This document shows positions 4,893 through 14,608 of a stretch of DNA of 22,891 bases, one piece after another. Position numbers and translations under genes: made by a program. Within the stretch, counting starts at the first letter, position 1, and each line of letters starts with the position of its first letter. Below the pieces are notes generated by a model. The model saw nothing but the letters and a program-made list of their open reading frames with translations, did no database searches and was not told where the DNA came from. Source of the stretch: a virus; the IMG/VR virus record IMGVR_UViG_3300032323_003024, positions 1-22,891 of that record, one strand, 5' to 3'.

Positions 4893-5124
4893 TAGAGAGA
4901 TATTTTTTAAATCATTGGTTATTATTACAGCATCAGTAACTTTGCTAATGGGTTTAATAATTGCTGCTAATATTATTAACACTGGTTACGTAAAAGACTT
5001 AGTTAAATTGTCTCTTGAAAAAGGACAAAATCCAGTGTATGTAAAATGCGCTATGGAGACTAATACATCTCAAGAATGTAAGACAATGATGACGGTGATT
5101 GCAGTATCTAAATCAGATAAATAG
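4885..5124 (+). CDS. Small single-pass membrane protein
   Basis: This 79-residue protein has one hydrophobic segment at about residues 10-32 (LVIITASVTLLMGLIIAANII). The remaining approximately 45 residues hold two cysteines (KCAMETNTSQECKTMM), probably outside the cytoplasm, where a disulfide could form. GAGG lies before the ATG. It overlaps the preceding membrane protein gene by 8 nt, so the two could act as a pair in the inner membrane. The family is not recognised. Confidence 0.75.
   Translation: MNDREIFFKSLVIITASVTLLMGLIIAANIINTGYVKDLVKLSLEKGQNPVYVKCAMETNTSQECKTMMTVIAVSKSDK
5116..5123 (+). promoter_or_regulatory. Possible T4-type late promoter (NATAAATA)
   Basis: GATAAATA matches the NATAAATA late-promoter pattern of T4-like phages, and the phage encodes a gp33-like coactivator. 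It lies five bases before the ATG of the PAAR gene, so initiation would fall at about the start codon. An 8-mer in AT-rich DNA is expected several times by chance, hence low confidence. Confidence 0.4.
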
Positions 5125-5128
5125 ATAC

Positions 5129-5458
5129 ATGCCAGGAATAGCAAGAGTCAATCAAGATAGAGCCGGTGGTCTTATCACCGGCAATTTAGCACCTACAGTA
5201 TTTGTAAATGGTCAACCCATTGCTGTAAAAGGTGCTAGTGTGCAAGGACATGGATTAGGTTCTCATGCTGGACCAGTTATAGATGGATCTTCTAAAACAG
5301 TATTTGCTAATGGAATTGGTGTTGCTAGAATAGGTGATTTAGCTACATGCGGCGATGCAATCTCAACTGGATCTGGTAACGTTAACGCCGGTGGTGTAGT
5401 GCCAATTGGTGCTAGTGTGTTAGGTATTTCACAATTAGGACAAGAGGCATTAAGTTAA
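5129..5458 (+). CDS. PAAR-domain tail spike tip protein
   Basis: The 109-residue product is a PAAR-repeat protein: RVNQDRAGGLITG near the N-terminus, VFVNGQPIAVKGASVQGHG, then VFANGIGVARIGDLATCGDAI and a glycine-rich end. PAAR proteins form the sharp cone capping the spike of contractile tails (gp5.4 in T4), and here His and Cys residues are available for the apical metal. I chose ATG 5129 because the upstream in-frame start would overlap the preceding gene by 26 nt. No Shine-Dalgarno is visible, and a late-type promoter lies directly upstream. The gene is followed after 1 nt by a fibre-like gene. Confidence 0.85.
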   Translation: MPGIARVNQDRAGGLITGNLAPTVFVNGQPIAVKGASVQGHGLGSHAGPVIDGSSKTVFANGIGVARIGDLATCGDAISTGSGNVNAGGVVPIGASVLGISQLGQEALS

Positions 5459-6741: not shown

Positions 6742-7374
6742 TTAAGCAGATAAAACGTGTACTGCATGATTATAGTGATTAACACGATCAGCAAGACCAA
6801 TAGTACCACCATTGATTCGCTTAGTCATACCTTCAAAATCACCGGCATCAGCAAATGTATTTAAATCATTTGAATACCAGAACCAGCAAGCAGAGTGTAC
6901 TGCACCACGTGGAGTCTCAAGATATTCTGCAGCTTGCTCAACAGTAATCTCAGCAGATTGTGCAAAGGCTGTATAGTTACTACGGCCAGTTAACTGAATC
7001 AAACCACGACCACAGAATCTCCAACCATCACCTGAAGCTGGATCACCATTACCCATACGATTTGCATAAACTAAGTTAGCAATCTTTTCCGGTTGACGAT
7101 GATATTCAGTTGCATCACGGCCAGCACCAATGAAATACTTTTTGAAGATGTTATTCAATCCATCTGATGAGTAGTTTAAGTTCTCTTTAAGAACTGCATA
7201 ACCACCAGATTCGTGTGCCGTTTGTGCTAGAAAAGAAGCAACTCTACCAACAGTTGTAATTTCAAACACTGGCAATAATTCTACTAATTCATTATACCAT
7301 GTTCCAACACCATATGCGGCGTTAGGTATAACTTGTTGTAGTTTTTCTTGCGTAAAATTAAATTCAAAAGACAT
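6742..7374 (-). CDS. GH19-family endolysin
   Basis: The 210-residue protein matches the glycoside hydrolase 19 (chitinase-like) endolysins of phages: FLAQTAHESGGY (Glu55), LKENLNYSSDGL (Glu64), YHRQPEKIANLVYANRMGNGD (about 91-111, quoted only as pattern), GWRFCGRGLIQLTGRSNY (about 117-134), CWFWYSNDLN and RINGGTIGLADR. In phages this fold cleaves the peptidoglycan glycan strand; Glu55 and Glu64 are candidate catalytic acids. There is no signal peptide, so it would need a holin to reach the periplasm, and two holin-like genes begin this operon. AAGGAAATAAT precedes the ATG. It follows the cyclase gene by 18 nt. Confidence 0.92.
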   Translation of the reverse strand: MSFEFNFTQEKLQQVIPNAAYGVGTWYNELVELLPVFEITTVGRVASFLAQTAHESGGYAVLKENLNYSSDGLNNIFKKYFIGAGRDATEYHRQPEKIANLVYANRMGNGDPASGDGWRFCGRGLIQLTGRSNYTAFAQSAEITVEQAAEYLETPRGAVHSACWFWYSNDLNTFADAGDFEGMTKRINGGTIGLADRVNHYNHAVHVLSA

Positions 7375-7392: not shown

Positions 7393-9423
7393 TTATTTAC
7401 TTGTAGCTCTATAGACACCATCCCAATTTGCTGGTAAGCCTTCATTTATGCGCTCTAGCATATTGATATAGTATTGTTTTAAATCAGTATCATCTTCTGC
7501 TAGTTTTTCGCAGTGGCGTTTAGCTGATGTCCAATCGCCGGCATAATACTTATCTAAAAATGTTTGATGTTTCCAATTTGATTCACCGAGTGTAAATATT
7601 TTGATACCTTCAGTTTTACCTTTAACAGCAATGCAATCTAGTTCTATTACTGGATACTCATCTTTAACGTATTCGGCAGTTAGACTACCTAATACCATTT
7701 TAACTCCGTAGGGCTTGGACTGTCCTTCCAATCTACTAGCCAAGTTAACCGAATCTCCGAGGCAAGTATAGTCAAAGCGTTGGTCTGAACCCATATTTCC
7801 AACAACAACGGTGCCTGTATTAATACCAAGACCCATACCAAACGCAGGAATACCTTCTTTAGCAATTTCATTATTAAATTCTTCTAAACTATTCATCATC
7901 TGCAACGCTGTACGCACTGCCATCTTGGCATGTTGTGGTTCATCTAGTGGTGCATTCCAAAATGCCATTTGAGCATCACCAATATACTTATCTAGAGTAC
8001 CATTATTTTCAATAATCTTCGCTGTCATCGCTGTCATATAGCGATTCATAATTTTAGTTAAGCCCTGTACGTCTTTGCCATAGTGTTCTGAAATTGTAGT
8101 AAATCCTCGAACATCTGTAAACATAATCGAGAGTTCTCTTGAATCACCACCGAGCTGTAACAATTCTGGGTTTCGTTGAAGTTTTTCAACCAATGCTGGG
8201 CTGAGGTATGTTCCAAATTGTTTTTTGATTTGGAGCTTTTGGCGCAATTCAACAAGGAATTTGACAACGTATCCGTGGAAACTAACGAGCGTGAGGGTGA
8301 GTATAGGGAATACAGCATCAAGTAAATAGCTTGATCGAACAAATAATTCAATACCGGCATAGTACGTAGCTCCTGATAAAAGTAATGCAAATACATAACC
8401 ATGCGTAAATCTCGTTAGAATTAATGTGATAATACAAATTGCAATAATGTATAGTAACTCTGCACCTAACGCCCAATCAGGTCTCGATATATTTTTACCT
8501 TCAATTAACGTATCCAAGATTGCTGCTTGAAGATAATGCGGATACACTCCACCTGTTGCAGTAGCTACTGGATTATTGAGTCCCTTTGCAGTAAGACCAA
8601 CAATAACAATACCACCATTAAAATCTTTTGGTAACTTTGCTGCAGAGTGTTCAATTGGTTGACTAGACCAATCAATCCAAACTCTACCAACTTCATCTGT
8701 TTGTATTTTTCTAAACTGTGGAATGCGTACTGCTTCAATTAAACCTTCATTAACTTTTACTTGGAAACTTGGATCGCCACTTGCAACTCTTAATGTTTCA
8801 AGTGTGATGGAAGGATAGAGTTGTCCATTTGATTGTACAACCATTGGTACTCGTCTGGTGACGCCATCGATTTCTGGCAATGTGTTAACAACGCCAATCC
8901 CAGCAGCACTACTATTAAACTCTTTAATATTAGGTTGAATGCTTTCATAAACTATTCCTGCATTTTCTCCACCTATGACTGATACGCCAGGTCTAAATGG
9001 AATTCCCTTTTGAGGACCAGTTGATCCGGCTTGTGGTAATACAACTGGATACTGTTTAAGTACAGACGTTAACTTATCATCTTGACCAAAGCGATCACGC
9101 TCAGGCATATAAACATTAAAAACAACCAGCCCAGCACCACGCTGATACAGATCACTAATGAGTTGGGCATATTGTCCGCGAGGGAATGGAAATTGTCCCT
9201 TTTGTTCGAGTGTTTGTTCATCAATATTCACCACATGTATTTGTTGAGAAGTTACTTTGGGTTGACTTGTTACTAAGGTATCAAAGTATCGCAGTCGGAT
9301 AGATTCCACAAATGATGGATCCACAATGCGTATAGACAACAAAAGCACTAGGGTTACTAGTGCTAACCACGGAGATAGTAATTTCTTACTTTTGAATAAT
9401 GCTAATAGTCGTTGTGCCACCAT
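7393..9423 (-). CDS. CHASE2-domain class III adenylate cyclase
   Basis: The 676-residue protein has an N-terminal membrane helix (about 16-34), an extracytoplasmic CHASE2 sensor domain (about 40-310, including VNIDEQTLEQKGQFPFPRG), three membrane helices (about 320-390) and a C-terminal class III nucleotidyl cyclase domain (about 425-610). Catalytic residues are intact: metal-binding Asp437 (FTDVRGF) and Asp483 (YIGDA), adenine-selecting Lys479 and Thr553 (DYTCLGD), and transition-state Asn560 and Arg564 (NLASRLE). ATP-to-cAMP conversion is thus predicted. A short C-terminal extension (about 615-676) looks TPR-like. It overlaps the FecR gene by 38 nt; FecR-CHASE2 pairs are common in bacterial genomes. 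AAAGGTGAAC precedes the ATG. Such a full sensor cyclase is very unusual in a phage. Confidence 0.93.
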   Translation of the reverse strand: MVAQRLLALFKSKKLLSPWLALVTLVLLLSIRIVDPSFVESIRLRYFDTLVTSQPKVTSQQIHVVNIDEQTLEQKGQFPFPRGQYAQLISDLYQRGAGLVVFNVYMPERDRFGQDDKLTSVLKQYPVVLPQAGSTGPQKGIPFRPGVSVIGGENAGIVYESIQPNIKEFNSSAAGIGVVNTLPEIDGVTRRVPMVVQSNGQLYPSITLETLRVASGDPSFQVKVNEGLIEAVRIPQFRKIQTDEVGRVWIDWSSQPIEHSAAKLPKDFNGGIVIVGLTAKGLNNPVATATGGVYPHYLQAAILDTLIEGKNISRPDWALGAELLYIIAICIITLILTRFTHGYVFALLLSGATYYAGIELFVRSSYLLDAVFPILTLTLVSFHGYVVKFLVELRQKLQIKKQFGTYLSPALVEKLQRNPELLQLGGDSRELSIMFTDVRGFTTISEHYGKDVQGLTKIMNRYMTAMTAKIIENNGTLDKYIGDAQMAFWNAPLDEPQHAKMAVRTALQMMNSLEEFNNEIAKEGIPAFGMGLGINTGTVVVGNMGSDQRFDYTCLGDSVNLASRLEGQSKPYGVKMVLGSLTAEYVKDEYPVIELDCIAVKGKTEGIKIFTLGESNWKHQTFLDKYYAGDWTSAKRHCEKLAEDDTDLKQYYINMLERINEGLPANWDGVYRATSK

Positions 9424-10480
9424 TGTTCACCTTTTGATATAGAGGAGTTCCATCCTGTGTTATATTTATAGCCAGATCAGATTCCCTATTCACAATTATT
9501 TGGGCAGTATGTGTACCTTGTTTAGTTAATATAAGTCTATCATTTTCATCGATACCATAACGTAATCCAGAAGCTTCACTCCAGCCAGGAAGCATAGTAG
9601 TTTGTTCTAGTAAAACTTCTTGACTTGCGGCCAACGCCTTTGTACTTTCATCTAAGATGTTAGGCAATAAATCATTGTCTAATTCATTTAAACCCAATAG
9701 ATCATACTTCAATTCATCTTTATCTAGTGCATCGTACTTTAATAAATCTCTATCTAAAAAGTTTATATCAATCGCCGTTTTATTTTCTGACTTACGTTCT
9801 TCATCCGCTACTTCTTTTGGTGGAGTAATAATGAGTAAGTTATTAATGTTCGCTTGATCTATTGACACTATAACAGGTTTTGATGGCGGTTGATTACTAT
9901 CAGCAACTAATGTAGTTTGATACGCTACATCCATTAACACAGAACCAGCGTTAGTAGAAACTTGAATAGCACCTGTTACGCATGCTTTGTTATCGCATGA
10001 TGGTAACAACATAATTAGTGAACGACCTAATTCATCAACAGTCATAGAGAAGTCAGTACCTCTCACAGCGATTGTTGCTGTAGGTGTTTTAATATCTACT
10101 GCTTGTGGATTTGATTTGGCAATTTGACCACTAGCATACCGAGCAGTCCCCAGTACGACTTTCATAGCGAGTTTGCCTGAACCTTTTTTAGGATCATACA
10201 CGAAGTCATCTATCACGAGCTTTGATTGCTCTGTGATATTGACTGTCGTGTTGTCCTCAAAAGTTAACTTGGCTTTAGCCTTAGCTGTAACAATAGTATC
10301 ATTCATTTCAACTCCACTGCCTACTTTACTAGGAATAGAGTTTTTGTTTCTTACAATTTCAGTTGGACCAGTTTGCTCTGAAACTTTACCAACAGCAGCA
10401 AAATTAGTTTGACTGATTAATAGTAATATTATTAAGATTGCCAGTTGAGTTAACTGTAATGCTTTGTTGTAGTGTACCAC
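9386..10480 (-). CDS. FecR-domain periplasmic protein with curlin-like tail
   Basis: The start is GTG at 10480, supported by GGAG nine bases upstream, and the product opens with a signal peptide (hydrophobic residues 13-23, likely cleavage after NFA at residue 28). Residues about 40-150 form a FecR domain: VGSGVEMNDTIVTAKAKAKL, FEDNTTVNITEQSKLVIDD, VVLGTARYASG and the family hallmark VRGTDF (139-144). A Leu/Asp-rich repetitive linker follows (about 240-280, DLLKYDALDKDELKYDLL). The C-terminus (about 326-364) has curlin-like strands (INITQDG, TTTISIIQK) echoing the neighbouring curlin gene. It overlaps the curlin gene by 77 nt and the cyclase by 38 nt. It probably acts outside the inner membrane as ligand or scaffold for the CHASE2 cyclase; a role as amyloid nucleator is possible. 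Confidence 0.88.
   Translation of the reverse strand: MVHYNKALQLTQLAILIILLLISQTNFAAVGKVSEQTGPTEIVRNKNSIPSKVGSGVEMNDTIVTAKAKAKLTFEDNTTVNITEQSKLVIDDFVYDPKKGSGKLAMKVVLGTARYASGQIAKSNPQAVDIKTPTATIAVRGTDFSMTVDELGRSLIMLLPSCDNKACVTGAIQVSTNAGSVLMDVAYQTTLVADSNQPPSKPVIVSIDQANINNLLIITPPKEVADEERKSENKTAIDINFLDRDLLKYDALDKDELKYDLLGLNELDNDLLPNILDESTKALAASQEVLLEQTTMLPGWSEASGLRYGIDENDRLILTKQGTHTAQIIVNRESDLAINITQDGTPLYQKVNNGGTTTISIIQK
9463..9470 (-). promoter_or_regulatory. Possible internal late promoter for cyclase
   Basis: On the minus strand these bases read TATAAATA, the exact T4 late-promoter core. It lies within the end of the FecR gene, about 40 nt before the cyclase start at 9423. It could give the cyclase and endolysin extra late transcription. 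One 8-mer match in AT-rich DNA is weak evidence. Confidence 0.3.
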
Positions 10481-10997
10481 TCTGTGTCACTCCAATTGTA
10501 TTAGTATCGCCAGTAGCATTAATGATAGCACTTGTTACTCCACTGTTAGTTGAAGTATGAGTGATTGTATTTGAGCTACCGATTACATTAATTTCACTGT
10601 GATGATTTGCACCAGTACCTAAGTTTTGAGTGATAGTGTTATCGTCACCTGACACAACTTGTTTAATAGTAGAACCAGAACATCCAGCAGATGATGTAGT
10701 TCCACAGTTAACAGTTTGAATGTTACCACTACCAGTAGTATCAATAACTACGTTTGTAGAAGCGCCATTAACTACTAAATTAAGTTCATTGTTGCTGCCG
10801 ATCTGATCGATCGTTACAACGTTAGAACCACTTCCAATATATGCCGGGTCTAATGAATTACCAATTCTATTACCACTACCGTCTTGAGTAATAGTAATAG
10901 TTGATGAATCACCAACTTGCTCGATATATACGTCATTTGCATAAACTGAAGACGAAATCACACATAACAAGGCGATGAGTATGTTTTTACTTTGCAT
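10404..10997 (-). CDS. csgA-like: Curlin-repeat (CsgA/CsgB-like) amyloid subunit
   Basis: The 197-residue protein has a signal peptide (MQSKNILIALLCVISSSVYA) and then tandem beta-helix-like repeats with N-x-I-x-Q-x-G spacing: DVYIEQVGDSSTITITQDG, NVVTIDQIGSNNELNLVV, STIKQVVSGDDNTITQNLG, SEINVIGSSNTITHTS and NLNNITINQSN. This resembles the S-x5-Q-x-G-x-N-x-A-x3-Q repeat of curlins, which are secreted unfolded through CsgG and assemble into amyloid fibres on the cell surface. Two cysteines (98, 106) flank a short insert between repeats, which is unusual for curlins. The gene overlaps CsgG by 11 nt, as expected for a dedicated substrate. Whether it is the major subunit or a nucleator cannot be told. 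Confidence 0.87.
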   Translation of the reverse strand: MQSKNILIALLCVISSSVYANDVYIEQVGDSSTITITQDGSGNRIGNSLDPAYIGSGSNVVTIDQIGSNNELNLVVNGASTNVVIDTTGSGNIQTVNCGTTSSAGCSGSTIKQVVSGDDNTITQNLGTGANHHSEINVIGSSNTITHTSTNSGVTSAIINATGDTNTIGVTQSGTLQQSITVNSTGNLNNITINQSN

Positions 10998-11793
10998 TTC
11001 CTATGTTTTCCTTGTTTGGTTTTGGTTTGAATTTCCAAATACCTTTCTTTTCTCCGTCCATAATCATTTCATACACTGCTTGTTCAATTGCTACTCTAAC
11101 AGCGTACGTTGTAGGTTCGTTAAGTGCAGTACCACTTTCTAATTCGAGTGATTTAGTTCCCTGATCAACAAACCTTAGTACTCCAACATTATGAGCTGTA
11201 CTGTAAATCGTCTTACTCACAGCATTGCTCAACAAAATCTCTCCACTATTCACGCTTATTAAGCGAAGAGATATAACAACTTCATCTACACGATATTGCT
11301 CACTTCCACCAATTCCTAAAAATCTAGCGCCATTACCACCAGATCTAATATTAGTATCATAACCTATAATACCACCTTCAAGCATGACACCTGCTACTAT
11401 CAATGGCTTTAATGGTTTAGCTTCTTTTCCTTCGTAAACTTCACGTTGATTACGAATCAATTGTCTTTCTTTTATAAGATTGTCTAAACCTACACGTTCA
11501 ACAACCCTAAACCAATTCTTACTATCTTGTAAAGATTTAATTAGAAATGTTTCACCACCTTGAGTAACTGCAGATGAGAATAATGCTAATCTATCACTAG
11601 ATTTCTTTTGTCCAGTTTGATCTTTAAAACTATAAACCGCAATTGCAATTGGTGGTCCATCTAATTCAGGTAATTTTTCTATCATACTCTGGCGCGGAGT
11701 TAACTTAACTGGTTCTTCCTGTGCTAATTTCATATGAATATTAGCACATCCAGTTAATACTACTACAGAGAGTAATAAAAACAAATTACGCAT
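10987..11793 (-). CDS. csgG: CsgG-family outer-membrane secretion lipoprotein
   Basis: The 268-residue protein is a clear homologue of CsgG, the nonameric outer-membrane pore of the curli (type VIII) system, and is close to its usual length (277 in E. coli). It has a lipoprotein signal with lipobox LTGC (Cys16) and the CsgG core motifs AVYSFKDQTGQ (52-62), LIKERQLIRNQRE, MLEGGIIGYDTNIRSGG, GARFLGIG, QYRVDEVVISLRL and SGEILLSNAVSKTI. In the constriction loop, Phe72 matches E. coli mature Phe56, but the Tyr51 and Asn55 positions differ (Ser/Asp and Leu), and the loop is one residue longer, so pore selectivity may differ. Its ATG overlaps the stop of the barrel gene (TAATG). Confidence 0.95.
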   Translation of the reverse strand: MRNLFLLLSVVVLTGCANIHMKLAQEEPVKLTPRQSMIEKLPELDGPPIAIAVYSFKDQTGQKKSSDRLALFSSAVTQGGETFLIKSLQDSKNWFRVVERVGLDNLIKERQLIRNQREVYEGKEAKPLKPLIVAGVMLEGGIIGYDTNIRSGGNGARFLGIGGSEQYRVDEVVISLRLISVNSGEILLSNAVSKTIYSTAHNVGVLRFVDQGTKSLELESGTALNEPTTYAVRVAIEQAVYEMIMDGEKKGIWKFKPKPNKENIGNAK

Positions 11794-13646
11794 TAGAATT
11801 TAATTTTTAAGTTCGCGCTTACAATATTACTTGTTGTATTGTTAATCCAATTTTTACCTAGGCCAACAGTAAACATGAGATTATCTTCGATTTTAGACAC
11901 ATTTAAAACGGCTTCTTTTACACCACTTGTAGTTCTTGCAAACTCAGTGGTAATTTTAGCATCATAAACTTTAGCACTGTATGATACACCAACTTCACCA
12001 ACTGTGCCGGTTGTATTTTTAGCAATCATTGATTGCGCTGACTCAACACTTCCGCTTTCAGTTACTGCAGGTGTATTAACTTTATAAACAGAACCACCAA
12101 CGAATGGGCGGAATCCTTCAACTGATGGTGTGTATGCTCTTGTGCTTAACCAAGTCATATTGCTTTTATTTGAATAATCATTTGCAAATGGACCAATGGT
12201 TCTATTGTAACGTGATGTAGTATTAACTCTAGCTAAATCGTTTTGAATTGTGAATCCGTTTAACTCAACATCAGCGTATACACCAACGTGTGTTCCAGTT
12301 AATGAAGCGTTATTTGTATCACGACCATCTAATCTACTAGAAATTTTATTGACTTGAAAACCAACGATCAAATCTGGATTAACGTCAGTTTCATATGCAA
12401 AACCTGCAATTGAAGTAGTTGCTCCATAACTGTTTTGGCCAGCGTACTTAATTCCAGTAACATTAATCGCCATTCTTCCATGCTCAGATGCAACACCGTA
12501 CTTAGCACTATTGCGATTTAAGTTACGATAAATTCCAGATCTAATAATATCAAATTGCTCAGCTTGGTCTGCCCGGCCAGAAAAACTATCGTTAGCAGTA
12601 GATGTAGCAATAACGTTAAATGATTCAGTCGTTTGAGTTGTAGAACCCTCTGTAGTAACTATTGAATCATCACTGTACGTGGTTGTTGTTACTGGTGTAG
12701 TTGAGATAGTTCTAATCCAAGGGGTATTAACACTCGTTGTTATAGTTCTATCAATTGTTTGCAATCCACTTACTTTACTATTTGCATAGTTAAATGATGC
12801 TGTAGAAGTAGGACTTTGATTTGCATCAACTATTTCTGCAACAATAATATGATTGTATGATGTAGTACTTACAACTGTTGGTGCACTTGGAGTACTTGGT
12901 GGAGGTGCTGAAGGCGCAGTATCATTGTTTGGAGCAACTGCACCAAAAGTTTGGCCATTCTTCGTTGTACTTCCTTGCACTTCATCAATGTATAGGATTG
13001 GACTTAATGCTGTATCACCTAAATTGAATACACCGAAACCTAATAAGTAATCACCGCTTTCAGTAACATTGAATGTTGCAACTTGCCAACCAGTAGCGCC
13101 ATAAGAACCAGTGGAGTAATCACCTGTACCAGGATTAGTAAAACCTAATAAAGCGTATTGGCTATTATAGTTATTAACGACTGTTGTGCCAGTGCTATTC
13201 ACTTTTGTTAATGTAGCAATTGAACCATCATTAAATGGAACGTAGTCAACGCTAACATATTGCCACGCTAAACTGAATTGTGTTCCAGCAGTTAATGTAA
13301 CTGTGCGTGTTACGTAACCAGCAGTTGTTGGAGTTGGATTACCACCACCACCGCTTTGTGCTTGTTGTTGTAGTAATGTAGTGATGCCTGATACGCTAGT
13401 GCTGTTCAATCCTAAAGCACTAGTCATATTATTAAACGATCCATTAGTGATTTGTAGTGTACCCATGTAACTACCATATGGATTAATAACCCATGCATTA
13501 GGACCAGCTTGTAGTGTTTGTGTTCCAGTTGCAGTTAATGTTGAGCTCGTCCAACCGGTGATATTACCGTCTTCAAATCCTAAGTTCTGAGCGTGTGCTG
13601 AAAATGCTAATGTAGCTAATGCAGCAAAAATTGTTTTCTTAAACAT
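11793..13646 (-). CDS. Large secreted outer-membrane beta-barrel protein
   Basis: The 617-residue protein opens with a signal peptide (MFKKTIFAALATLAFSAHA). A beta-sandwich-like domain follows (about 20-235, starting NLGFEDGNITGW, as in carbohydrate-binding or PEP-CTERM-type proteins), then a proline-rich hinge (about 240-262), a Thr/Ser-rich stalk (about 265-360) and a C-terminal barrel (about 375-617). The barrel shows alternating strands (GFAYETDVNPDLIVGFQVNK) and ends in aromatic Phe (NLKIKF), the usual barrel-assembly signal. This is autotransporter-like. Its place between csgF and csgG, with AGGAA before the ATG and a one-base overlap into csgG, makes it part of the module: perhaps an anchor, adhesin or outer-membrane partner of the fibre. 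I do not recognise a named family. Confidence 0.8.
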   Translation of the reverse strand: MFKKTIFAALATLAFSAHAQNLGFEDGNITGWTSSTLTATGTQTLQAGPNAWVINPYGSYMGTLQITNGSFNNMTSALGLNSTSVSGITTLLQQQAQSGGGGNPTPTTAGYVTRTVTLTAGTQFSLAWQYVSVDYVPFNDGSIATLTKVNSTGTTVVNNYNSQYALLGFTNPGTGDYSTGSYGATGWQVATFNVTESGDYLLGFGVFNLGDTALSPILYIDEVQGSTTKNGQTFGAVAPNNDTAPSAPPPSTPSAPTVVSTTSYNHIIVAEIVDANQSPTSTASFNYANSKVSGLQTIDRTITTSVNTPWIRTISTTPVTTTTYSDDSIVTTEGSTTQTTESFNVIATSTANDSFSGRADQAEQFDIIRSGIYRNLNRNSAKYGVASEHGRMAINVTGIKYAGQNSYGATTSIAGFAYETDVNPDLIVGFQVNKISSRLDGRDTNNASLTGTHVGVYADVELNGFTIQNDLARVNTTSRYNRTIGPFANDYSNKSNMTWLSTRAYTPSVEGFRPFVGGSVYKVNTPAVTESGSVESAQSMIAKNTTGTVGEVGVSYSAKVYDAKITTEFARTTSGVKEAVLNVSKIEDNLMFTVGLGKNWINNTTSNIVSANLKIKF

Positions 13647-13654
13647 TTAATTTC

Positions 13655-14092
13655 CTAAAATGCGAATGAGGCGATAGGTACTGTGATGTCTGTCCTATTA
13701 CCATTAGTTTCTGTAATCGTTAGTGTTACGTCTGTACCAGTTTTAACCCATGAAATAGCTGTGCCTTGAAAACTCATATCACCTGAGGTGGCACCACTGT
13801 CTGCAAACATTGCATCTGCAAGTTGCTTTGAAAGTTGAGCATAAATTCTTGACTCAACGTTAACTAAAAATTTAGCAAGGTTAGTATTTCTTGCCGCACG
13901 ATCGGCTGCATCTTGAGCAGCTCTTTCATTATCTCTGAGTTTTTGTGTACGTGTAGCTTCTAGTTGTTCAATGGTTAGAACGTGAGTAGAGTAACCCACA
14001 CCACTAAAAGCTGGGGAATTAAATTGATGAACTAGTTCTGAGGCATTAGCACAATTAACTAGTAGTAGACTTAGTAGAACCCTTTTTAGCAT
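13655..14092 (-). CDS. csgF: CsgF-like curli assembly factor
   Basis: I chose ATG 14092 because the product (145 residues) then begins with a compact signal peptide (MLKRVLLSLLLVNCANA). The mature start, SELVHQFNSPAFSGVG, matches the CsgF N-terminal pattern QF-(R/N)-x-P-x-F-x-G, the segment that plugs into the CsgG channel in E. coli. HVLTIEQLEATR then parallels the LLNSAQAQN segment. An Ala/Arg-rich helix follows (about 57-75), then ESRIYAQLSKQLADAMF and a C-terminal beta pair (DVTLTITETNGNRTDITV) like the CsgF tail. CsgF forms a second constriction on CsgG and anchors the nucleator. The gene overlaps the holin-like gene upstream by 38 nt, and the weak GAAGA upstream suggests coupled translation. 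Confidence 0.85.
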   Translation of the reverse strand: MLKRVLLSLLLVNCANASELVHQFNSPAFSGVGYSTHVLTIEQLEATRTQKLRDNERAAQDAADRAARNTNLAKFLVNVESRIYAQLSKQLADAMFADSGATSGDMSFQGTAISWVKTGTDVTLTITETNGNRTDITVPIASFAF

Positions 14093-14333
14093 CAGCTTTA
14101 TCTTCTTGGTCGCGTAATGATAGAATAACATTAACCTTTTGGTTTAGACGAATTAAGTCATTATCTAACATACGAATACGATCAATCAAATCAACTAACA
14201 CTTTACTTGCTTCACTTGTAACAGGTTTAATTTCTGTTGTTACCCATTGCCAAACGTAATACACAAAGTAGCCAAGACCACCAGCGGCTACAATTGGAAA
14301 ACCATACTTATTAATTAATGATACGATATCCAT
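14055..14333 (-). CDS. Holin-like membrane protein, copy 2
   Basis: This 92-residue protein has one hydrophobic helix near the N-terminus (YGFPIVAAGGLGYFVYYVW, about 10-28), a long cytoplasmic helix (DLIDRIRMLDNDLIRLNQKV) and a charged tail. It is clearly paralogous to its upstream neighbour (both have GFPI, GYFV and a later D-R-I/V...DVIRID-like helix). Such GFPI-type single-helix proteins occur near lysis genes in marine T4-like phages and are probably holins or holin regulators. It shares base 14333 with the upstream gene's stop (TAATG) and overlaps csgF by 38 nt. Confidence 0.75.
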   Translation of the reverse strand: MDIVSLINKYGFPIVAAGGLGYFVYYVWQWVTTEIKPVTSEASKVLVDLIDRIRMLDNDLIRLNQKVNVILSLRDQEDKADAKKGSTKSTTS

Positions 14334-14608
14334 TAATCTCTCCTAGCGTCGGACTGCTCAGCGCGAGCAATACGATCTAAGTCTGGTGGAATACCTAAGG
14401 CGTGAGATACTTTAGTATCGATTCTTATAACATCATGATTCATGGCTGCTACACGTTTATCGAGAGCAACAATAATACCCATCATGCTTTTTACAGAAGA
14501 GGTTACACCGGCTAAGATAAACTTTAGTGTAAGGAAGACGAAATATCCGGCTGCGATTGCTGCTGCAATTGGAAAGCCTACTTCAGCTACTAATTTAAAG
14601 AATTCCAT
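14333..14608 (-). CDS. Holin-like membrane protein, copy 1 (operon leader gene)
   Basis: This 91-residue protein has a hydrophobic helix (VGFPIAAAIAAGYFVFLTLKFIL, about 10-32) and an amphipathic helix with DKRVAAMNHDVIRIDTKVSHALG (about 49-71), closely parallel to the following gene. Paired holin-like paralogues may act as holin and antiholin, but which is which cannot be told. It is the first gene of the ten-gene minus-strand operon, about 35 nt after the TATAAATA promoter. The endolysin, its natural partner, is eight genes downstream. Confidence 0.75.
   Translation of the reverse strand: MEFFKLVAEVGFPIAAAIAAGYFVFLTLKFILAGVTSSVKSMMGIIVALDKRVAAMNHDVIRIDTKVSHALGIPPDLDRIARAEQSDARRD

Follow-up and report, generated by a model that had tools for sequence, protein, structure and literature searches.

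We analyzed a virus record of 22,891 bases (IMGVR_UViG_3300032323_003024; the window, by which we mean this whole stretch of DNA), a fragment of a T4-like phage of water bacteria whose minus strand carries a curli (type VIII) secretion module, with CsgG, CsgF, and a curlin encoded together. Downstream of these lie genes for a FecR-domain protein and a CHASE2-adenylate cyclase, and in viral loci the FecR gene is inseparable from curlin and the CHASE2 cyclase. The FecR protein combines a front half predicted to adopt the fold of a bacterial adhesin anchoring domain with a C-terminal tail whose last strands resemble the kernel of curlin repeats. We tentatively propose that it is a periplasmic coupling subunit of the phage curli module, joining fiber export to the CHASE2 cyclase. 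A functional link between FecR and CHASE2 is probable, and a contact between the tail and curlin has slightly less than an even chance. The minus-strand operon runs through two small membrane open reading frames (ORFs), CsgF, a 617-amino-acid (aa) barrel-like protein, CsgG, curlin, FecR, the CHASE2-adenylate cyclase, and a GH19 endolysin; its central components are as follows.

13655 to 14131, minus strand: CsgF (PF10614, 4.9e-16).
10987 to 11793, minus strand: CsgG, the outer-membrane curli pore (PF03783, 5.6e-53; solved CsgG chains to 6e-51).
10404 to 10997, minus strand: curlin (CsgA/B-like) subunit, 197 aa (PF07012, Curlin_rpt, 8.2e-7, 3 stretches).
9386 to 10480, minus strand: FecR-domain protein, 364 aa, with a GTG start and an N-terminal hydrophobic helix at residues 2 to 22 (PF04773, 1.1e-11, at residues 61 to 149; phrog_37870, 4.1e-92; AlphaFold2 model).
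7393 to 9423, minus strand: CHASE2 plus class III adenylate cyclase, 676 aa (PF05226, 8e-40; PF00211, Guanylate_cyc, 8.9e-21).

To compare this arrangement across viruses, we collected FecR relatives from viral contigs, keeping the best 80 of 498. The 82 sequences used reduced to 68 unique window-clade FecRs (L052, whose FecR is cut at the contig end, was left out), which together with 60 from the marine HTVC clade make 128 unique FecRs; subsets of the 68 comprised 37 tails (A2), 64 proteins (A3), and 62 tails (A4). Curlin lies directly upstream of FecR in 153 of the 154 viral loci with at least 900 nucleotides (nt) upstream, and CsgG and CsgF are present upstream in all 136 loci with at least 3.5 kb on that side. 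With at least 4.5 kb downstream, the CHASE2-adenylate cyclase follows FecR in 90 of 91 loci. Some of these loci share a source phage or derive from phages that are nearly identical, and the counts are of loci rather than of independent events. The downstream cyclase is on the opposite strand in 15 of 59 window-clade loci. The module is also found on a contig filed under a Flavobacteriaceae metagenome-assembled genome (L084, or G001:C62), with one in-frame stop within its CHASE2 match; this is probably a binned phage contig.

The cyclase itself appears competent. Residues D437, K479, D483, and R564, which we take to be the two metal-binding aspartates, the purine-binding lysine, and the transition-state arginine, are kept in 86 of 86 viral relatives, the window included, so that all of them have the residue set expected of an active class III adenylate cyclase. 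In the NLA.R motif, 27 of the 86 have Ser in place of the Asn found at residue 560 of the window protein. The ligand of CHASE2 is stated to be unknown in the available part of PMC5192318.

Within the FecR protein we distinguish the following parts.

10181 to 10402, minus strand: residues 27 to 100, predicted adhesin cell-surface anchoring fold (5ix9 match).
9821 to 10237, minus strand: residues 82 to 220, FecR/PupR-type cell-surface signaling domain (6ovk and 4m0n matches; Pfam FecR at 61 to 149).
9653 to 9757, minus strand: residues 242 to 276, acidic Leu/Asp repeat with leucines every 5 residues (128 unique sequences).
9392 to 9568, minus strand: residues 305 to 363, predicted C-terminal six-stranded beta domain with curlin-like last strands (AlphaFold2, motif and profile comparison).
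9449 to 9475, minus strand: residues 336 to 344, first curlin-like kernel, LAINITQDG (Q342 in 127 of 128).
9392 to 9412, minus strand: residues 357 to 363, second, C-terminal curlin-like kernel, TTISIIQ (Q363 in 127 of 128).

The front half is recognized both as FecR and as a part of adhesins. The Pfam FecR domain scores 45.4 bits in the window protein against a gathering cutoff of 24, and it is matched at the search threshold in 68 of 68 window-clade FecRs. An AlphaFold2 model of the whole protein (64 sequences; predicted local distance difference test score [pLDDT] of 66 overall and 80 to 89 in the tail) has low values in most of residues 91 to 126 (under 50) and 214 to 273. In this model, residues 27 to 100 take the fold of the retention/anchoring domain of RTX adhesins, aligning with 5ix9 over 74 of 76 residues (VIA-align Z, 10.8; root mean square deviation, 2.1; Foldseek prob, 1.00; TMt, 0.80). 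We assume 5ix9 to be the anchoring domain from Marinomonas primoryensis, the label of the match being only "cell surface anchoring domain." Residues 82 to 220 match the PupR signaling domain (6ovk, Z of 8.1; 4m0n, Z of 7.1). A search of the FecR profile against PDB sequences gave no credible match. According to the available part of PMC13090378, such N-terminal anchoring domains of large adhesins are periplasmic retention domains; the phage protein would share their fold but has a signal-type helix at its N terminus and lacks adhesin repeats.

The name of the gene implies, and the Pfam FecR domain and the PupR fold match could also be taken to mean, that the protein is an iron-responsive regulator of an extracytoplasmic function (ECF) sigma factor, and a possible iron link has been suggested for phage FecR (PMC9599517, in the portion available). 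The hydrophobic helix, however, already begins at residue 2 and ends at residue 22, and since the stretch before it is short, there is no room for an anti-sigma domain; nor was a sigma factor or TonB receptor found among the window genes scanned by profile. With no N-terminal anti-sigma domain, we reject the anti-sigma role, and an iron-responsive ECF regulator is the most improbable of the explanations considered here.

Between the front half and the tail, the acidic Leu/Asp stretch had been put forward in the first-pass annotation as a spacer. The stretch is real, but it is a conserved repeat with leucines spaced by 5: leucines 242, 247, and 252 are present in 128 of 128 FecRs and those at 262, 267, 272, and 276 in 126 to 127 of 128. 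A passive spacer would not be conserved to this degree. This near-invariance across the 128 FecRs is found despite an AlphaFold2 pLDDT under 50 over most of the length of the repeat.

The same annotation held that the strands of the tail echo curlin repeats, and this stood at the level of motif and profile. The curlin kernel is given in the available text of PMC10192328 as N-x-psi-x-psi-x-Q. Two hydrophobic-x-hydrophobic-x-Q (psi-x-psi-x-Q) kernels, the second C-terminal, occur in 120 of 128 unique FecRs (61 of 68 in the window clade and 59 of 60 in the marine clade) and in 0 of 2,950 background ORFs, although this pattern was defined after inspection of the tails, which lessens its weight. 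The strict kernel with the leading Asn occurs among the 12 C-terminal residues in 59 of 60 marine FecRs but in only 2 of 68 window-clade FecRs (3 of 2,950 background ORFs). Conversely, hits of the published repeat regular expression in the C-terminal 60 aa were seen in 40 of the 68 FecRs of the window clade and in none of the 60 from the HTVC clade, compared with 52 of 2,950 background ORFs. In profile-profile comparison, the window-clade tail scored 23.0 against freshwater curlin (P of 0.0007; HH probability, 26%). All controls scored lower, with maxima of 15.4 for column shuffles (n = 100), 18.9 for parity shuffles (n = 100), and 14.2 for windows from other families (n = 116; families with fewer than 8 members or labeled curlin were excluded). 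The marine tail scored 23.5 against marine curlin 2, a value reached by 0 of 60 shuffles.

Several results weigh against kinship of the tail with curlin or against its acting on the fiber. At the family level, there was no match to curlin repeats: the Pfam Curlin_rpt model (PF07012) matched 0 of 37 tails and 0 of 68 full FecRs with E values of up to 10, and a curlin repeat-unit hidden Markov model (HMM) scored FecR tails as noise. On this basis, we reject the tail as an annotated curlin repeat. With the curlin HMM, the C terminus of CsgF scores as well as FecR. The marine tail scored just 11.8 against marine curlin 1 (reached by 11 of 60 shuffles) and weakly, at 18.3, against freshwater curlin (2 of 60 shuffles), and one window from the FecR body scored 22.0 against marine curlin 1, from which it follows that the latter profile is noisy; the marine replicate is therefore mixed. 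The tail modeled alone (62 sequences; pLDDT, 91; predicted template modeling score, 0.78) appears as a compact domain of six strands and not evidently a solenoid; two of the strands are joined by a 2-residue turn, which looks like a hairpin, unlike the arcs of curlin. Finally, curlin polymerizes outside the cell, and FecR is predicted to be periplasmic.

No solved fold matched the tail (best Z against the PDB, 3.0; best Foldseek E value, 0.22), and the sole good viral match was another phage FecR. The window tail alone had no phage relative by tblastn, and the curlin profile had one weak match in the PDB. A search of 385 Alphaproteobacteria genomes with the tail profile returned no match, but it also missed HTVC008M and the phage-like contig of G001 and is hence uninformative. 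Of the earlier suggestion that the tail could join the amyloid, simple copolymerization as a beta-solenoid is unsupported.

These data bear directly on whether the curlin likeness is convergent, with the tail being an unrelated small beta domain (for dimerization or envelope docking) and FecR only a cosensor of CHASE2. The lack of a family-level match, the noise-level repeat-unit HMM, the compact model of no known fold, and the mixed marine replicate all favor convergence; the two kernels of 120 of 128 FecRs, the second ending the protein as it does in curlin and the pair being found in 0 of 2,950 background ORFs, speak against it, as does the absence of the tail from the examined bacterial FecR-CHASE2 partners. 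We regard convergence as less likely than not. The tail-curlin likeness is specific and exceeds chance at the motif level, though not at the family level, and common descent is not proven.

The link to CHASE2 gains support from bacteria. The closest bacterial FecR relatives are mostly from Rhodospirillales and have the same two domains near the N terminus of proteins of up to ~3,000 aa; four that were scanned have RTX repeats or cadherin domains. Bacterial loci were searched as genomes in 24 of 46 cases, and in these 24 genomes, which were selected for having FecR, 10 of the 39 FecR places have CHASE2 no more than 3 kb away against 0.28 expected, one of the 10 being the phage-like contig of G001. 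In eight fetched bacterial CHASE2 neighborhoods, the viral FecR model recognized FecR in five; its reach is limited, as it missed FecR in the other three, where Pfam had found one. None of the five recognized proteins ends in two kernels, and one has a single kernel. One bacterial partner is only 158 aa long and consists of a signal peptide and a FecR domain. This minimal FecR (Limnohabitans L223, 3216 to 3692, the same gene as in L112) directly follows the CHASE2-cyclase gene with a 4-nt overlap. The FecR domain thus seems sufficient for pairing with CHASE2, and since none of these five proteins has the two-kernel end, the linker and tail look like an addition accompanying curli. CsgF was found in only 4 of the 385 Alphaproteobacteria genomes, and in the 18-kb stretches around it no ORF matched the viral FecR or cyclase HMMs, themselves of limited reach, at an E value of 1.

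From the gene linkage, the motifs, the profile similarity, the predicted domains, and the conserved cyclase residues, we infer where FecR is located, what it contacts, and in which direction the signal runs. FecR would reside in the periplasm beside the CsgG pore. Its N-terminal half, with the anchoring-type fold followed by the FecR/PupR-type domain, would be the module that in bacteria heads RTX or cadherin adhesins or stands by itself; this half would stay periplasmic and report to the CHASE2 domain of the neighboring cyclase. The Leu/Asp repeat and the small C-terminal beta domain would have been acquired in phages, and the last strands of the tail, copying the curlin kernel, would dock on curlin, whether nascent or already exported, at the CsgG pore or the fiber base. 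Export or anchoring of the fiber would then alter FecR, which would alter CHASE2 and thereby raise or lower cyclic AMP (cAMP) in the infected cell. A bolder version, which we consider unlikely, is that the phage builds an amyloid fiber on its host and monitors it: FecR would serve as an adhesin-type anchor, its curlin-mimicking tail capping or seeding the fiber through the CsgG pore, with CHASE2 reading export, anchoring, or tension as cAMP. The virus would then have built an amyloid-to-second-messenger sensor from a bacterial adhesin-monitoring module.

With about the same low likelihood, FecR might instead escort or gate curlin in the periplasm, taking the place of the missing CsgE/CsgC; the tail would keep curlin unfolded or deliver it to CsgG, and the link to the cyclase would be secondary. 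No CsgE-like gene was recognized by profile scans in the window operon, the published phage modules lack CsgC, CsgD, and CsgE (PMC9599517, as far as its available text goes), and the last strands of the tail are curlin-like. Against an escort speak the cyclase downstream of FecR in 90 of 91 loci and the occurrence of the FecR-CHASE2 pair without curli in bacteria.

The genes for FecR and its two neighbors overlap in the window as follows.

10404 to 10480, minus strand: curlin 3' end and FecR signal-peptide region, 77 nt (ORF coordinates; conserved start position).
9386 to 9423, minus strand: FecR 3' end and cyclase start, 38 nt (ORF coordinates).

The 77-nt overlap with curlin had been noticed from the window alone; its coordinates and reading frames are correct, and the in-frame start position recurs in relatives. 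Among 78 close viral loci with a definable upstream curlin ORF, 69 offer FecR an in-frame start at -76 or -58, counted from the end of curlin, and the remaining 9 have one between -52 and -79. In 49 of the 78 there is no alternative FecR start from -44 to +60. Given these recurrent in-frame starts, without alternatives in 49 loci, the overlap is not an artifact. In the marine HTVC008M clade, the curlin-FecR junction is variable, the two genes overlapping by as much as 41 nt or standing up to 86 nt apart; the overlap is therefore common but not required. Synonymous constraint in the overlapped stretch was not significant (P of 0.10, 6 columns). The codons of the final curlin strand (10404 to 10480) are used twice: in the FecR frame, they specify the hydrophobic core of its signal peptide. 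Conservation of the tail as a by-product of the overlap with the cyclase gene is unsupported, as the tail persists in the many other loci in which that overlap is 4 nt or absent.

Much of this module has published counterparts. Pelagiphages are described as carrying CsgF, CsgG, CsgA/B, FecR, and a cyclase (PMC9599517), CsgG/CsgF have been described in phages (PMC9004378 and PMC7029224), and, in the parts of these three papers available, the pelagiphage/Melnitz type VIII module has the same genes in the same order: CsgF, CsgG, curlin, FecR, an optional second curlin, and adenylate cyclase. The window differs from it in lacking the second curlin and in having the 617-aa barrel-like protein between CsgF and CsgG. 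A secreted FecR-domain protein likewise stands beside a CHASE2 cyclase or kinase in Campylobacterota (PMC9239204) and in the Burkholderia BiofilmReg operon (PMC5192318); the available text of these accounts describes no curli genes, and the Burkholderia partner is a LysM-FecR protein with a histidine kinase. The gene module and the clustering of FecR with CHASE2 are thus already published. Within the open-licence text available, we found no mention of the tail, of the anchoring fold of phage FecR, or of the adhesin-CHASE2 parallel. The proposed role would also recall that of the minor curlin CsgB, an anchor and nucleator (PMC10192328, in its available part), in that FecR would be a cell-bound template with a curlin-compatible edge; it differs in having only two kernels, no tandem repeats, and a predicted compact domain instead of a solenoid.

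Curli encoded by phages occur throughout the ocean according to PMC9599517, and published accounts leave phage FecR as a vague iron-type regulator and phage curli without a known purpose. If FecR does connect curlin with the CHASE2 cyclase, the module would be a fiber sensor, and the ligand of CHASE2 domains could be a FecR protein. Bacterial adhesins with a FecR front end near CHASE2 parallel such a combination of fiber and cAMP sensor. By this analogy, the presence of CHASE2 genes next to bacterial adhesins with the same N-terminal module suggests that FecR domains may more widely report the state of surface fibers.

The genes flanking the operon raise the question of lysis. A lysis-timing role of CsgG/CsgF was proposed for phage Melnitz (PMC9004378, in the text available), and if their pore so acts, FecR and the cyclase might time lysis. 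In the window, two holin-like ORFs and the GH19 endolysin flank the operon in the same orientation, and expression of the operon may be tied to lysis. Yet among 83 viral sequences, made up of 82 loci and the window, a GH19 relative was found in 1, the window itself, and conservation of the curlin genes does not fit a role for the pore only; we consider this explanation very unlikely. The two ORFs (14055 to 14608, minus strand) are tandem paralogous small membrane ORFs, both phrog_18771, of which one has a weak holin match (E value, 0.0012). The endolysin (6742 to 7374, minus strand; phrog_181, 1.2e-76) lies on the strand of the curli operon.

One further component of the operon is placed as follows.

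11793 to 13646, minus strand: secreted protein of 617 aa with an autotransporter-like C terminus and no Pfam match, between CsgF and CsgG.

Elsewhere (L071, L072, L073, L074, and L081), relatives of this barrel-like protein are encoded in the interval separating FecR from the cyclase, and the protein in that interval of L073 has a discoidin (F5/8 type C) domain. A megablast search of the region against phages gave no match. The T4-like genes of the window include that for a gp32-like single-stranded DNA-binding protein (phrog_224), and its plus strand encodes a collagen-like protein of tail-fiber type (913 to 1482) and a PAAR protein (5099 to 5458; phrog_281, 2.1e-20).

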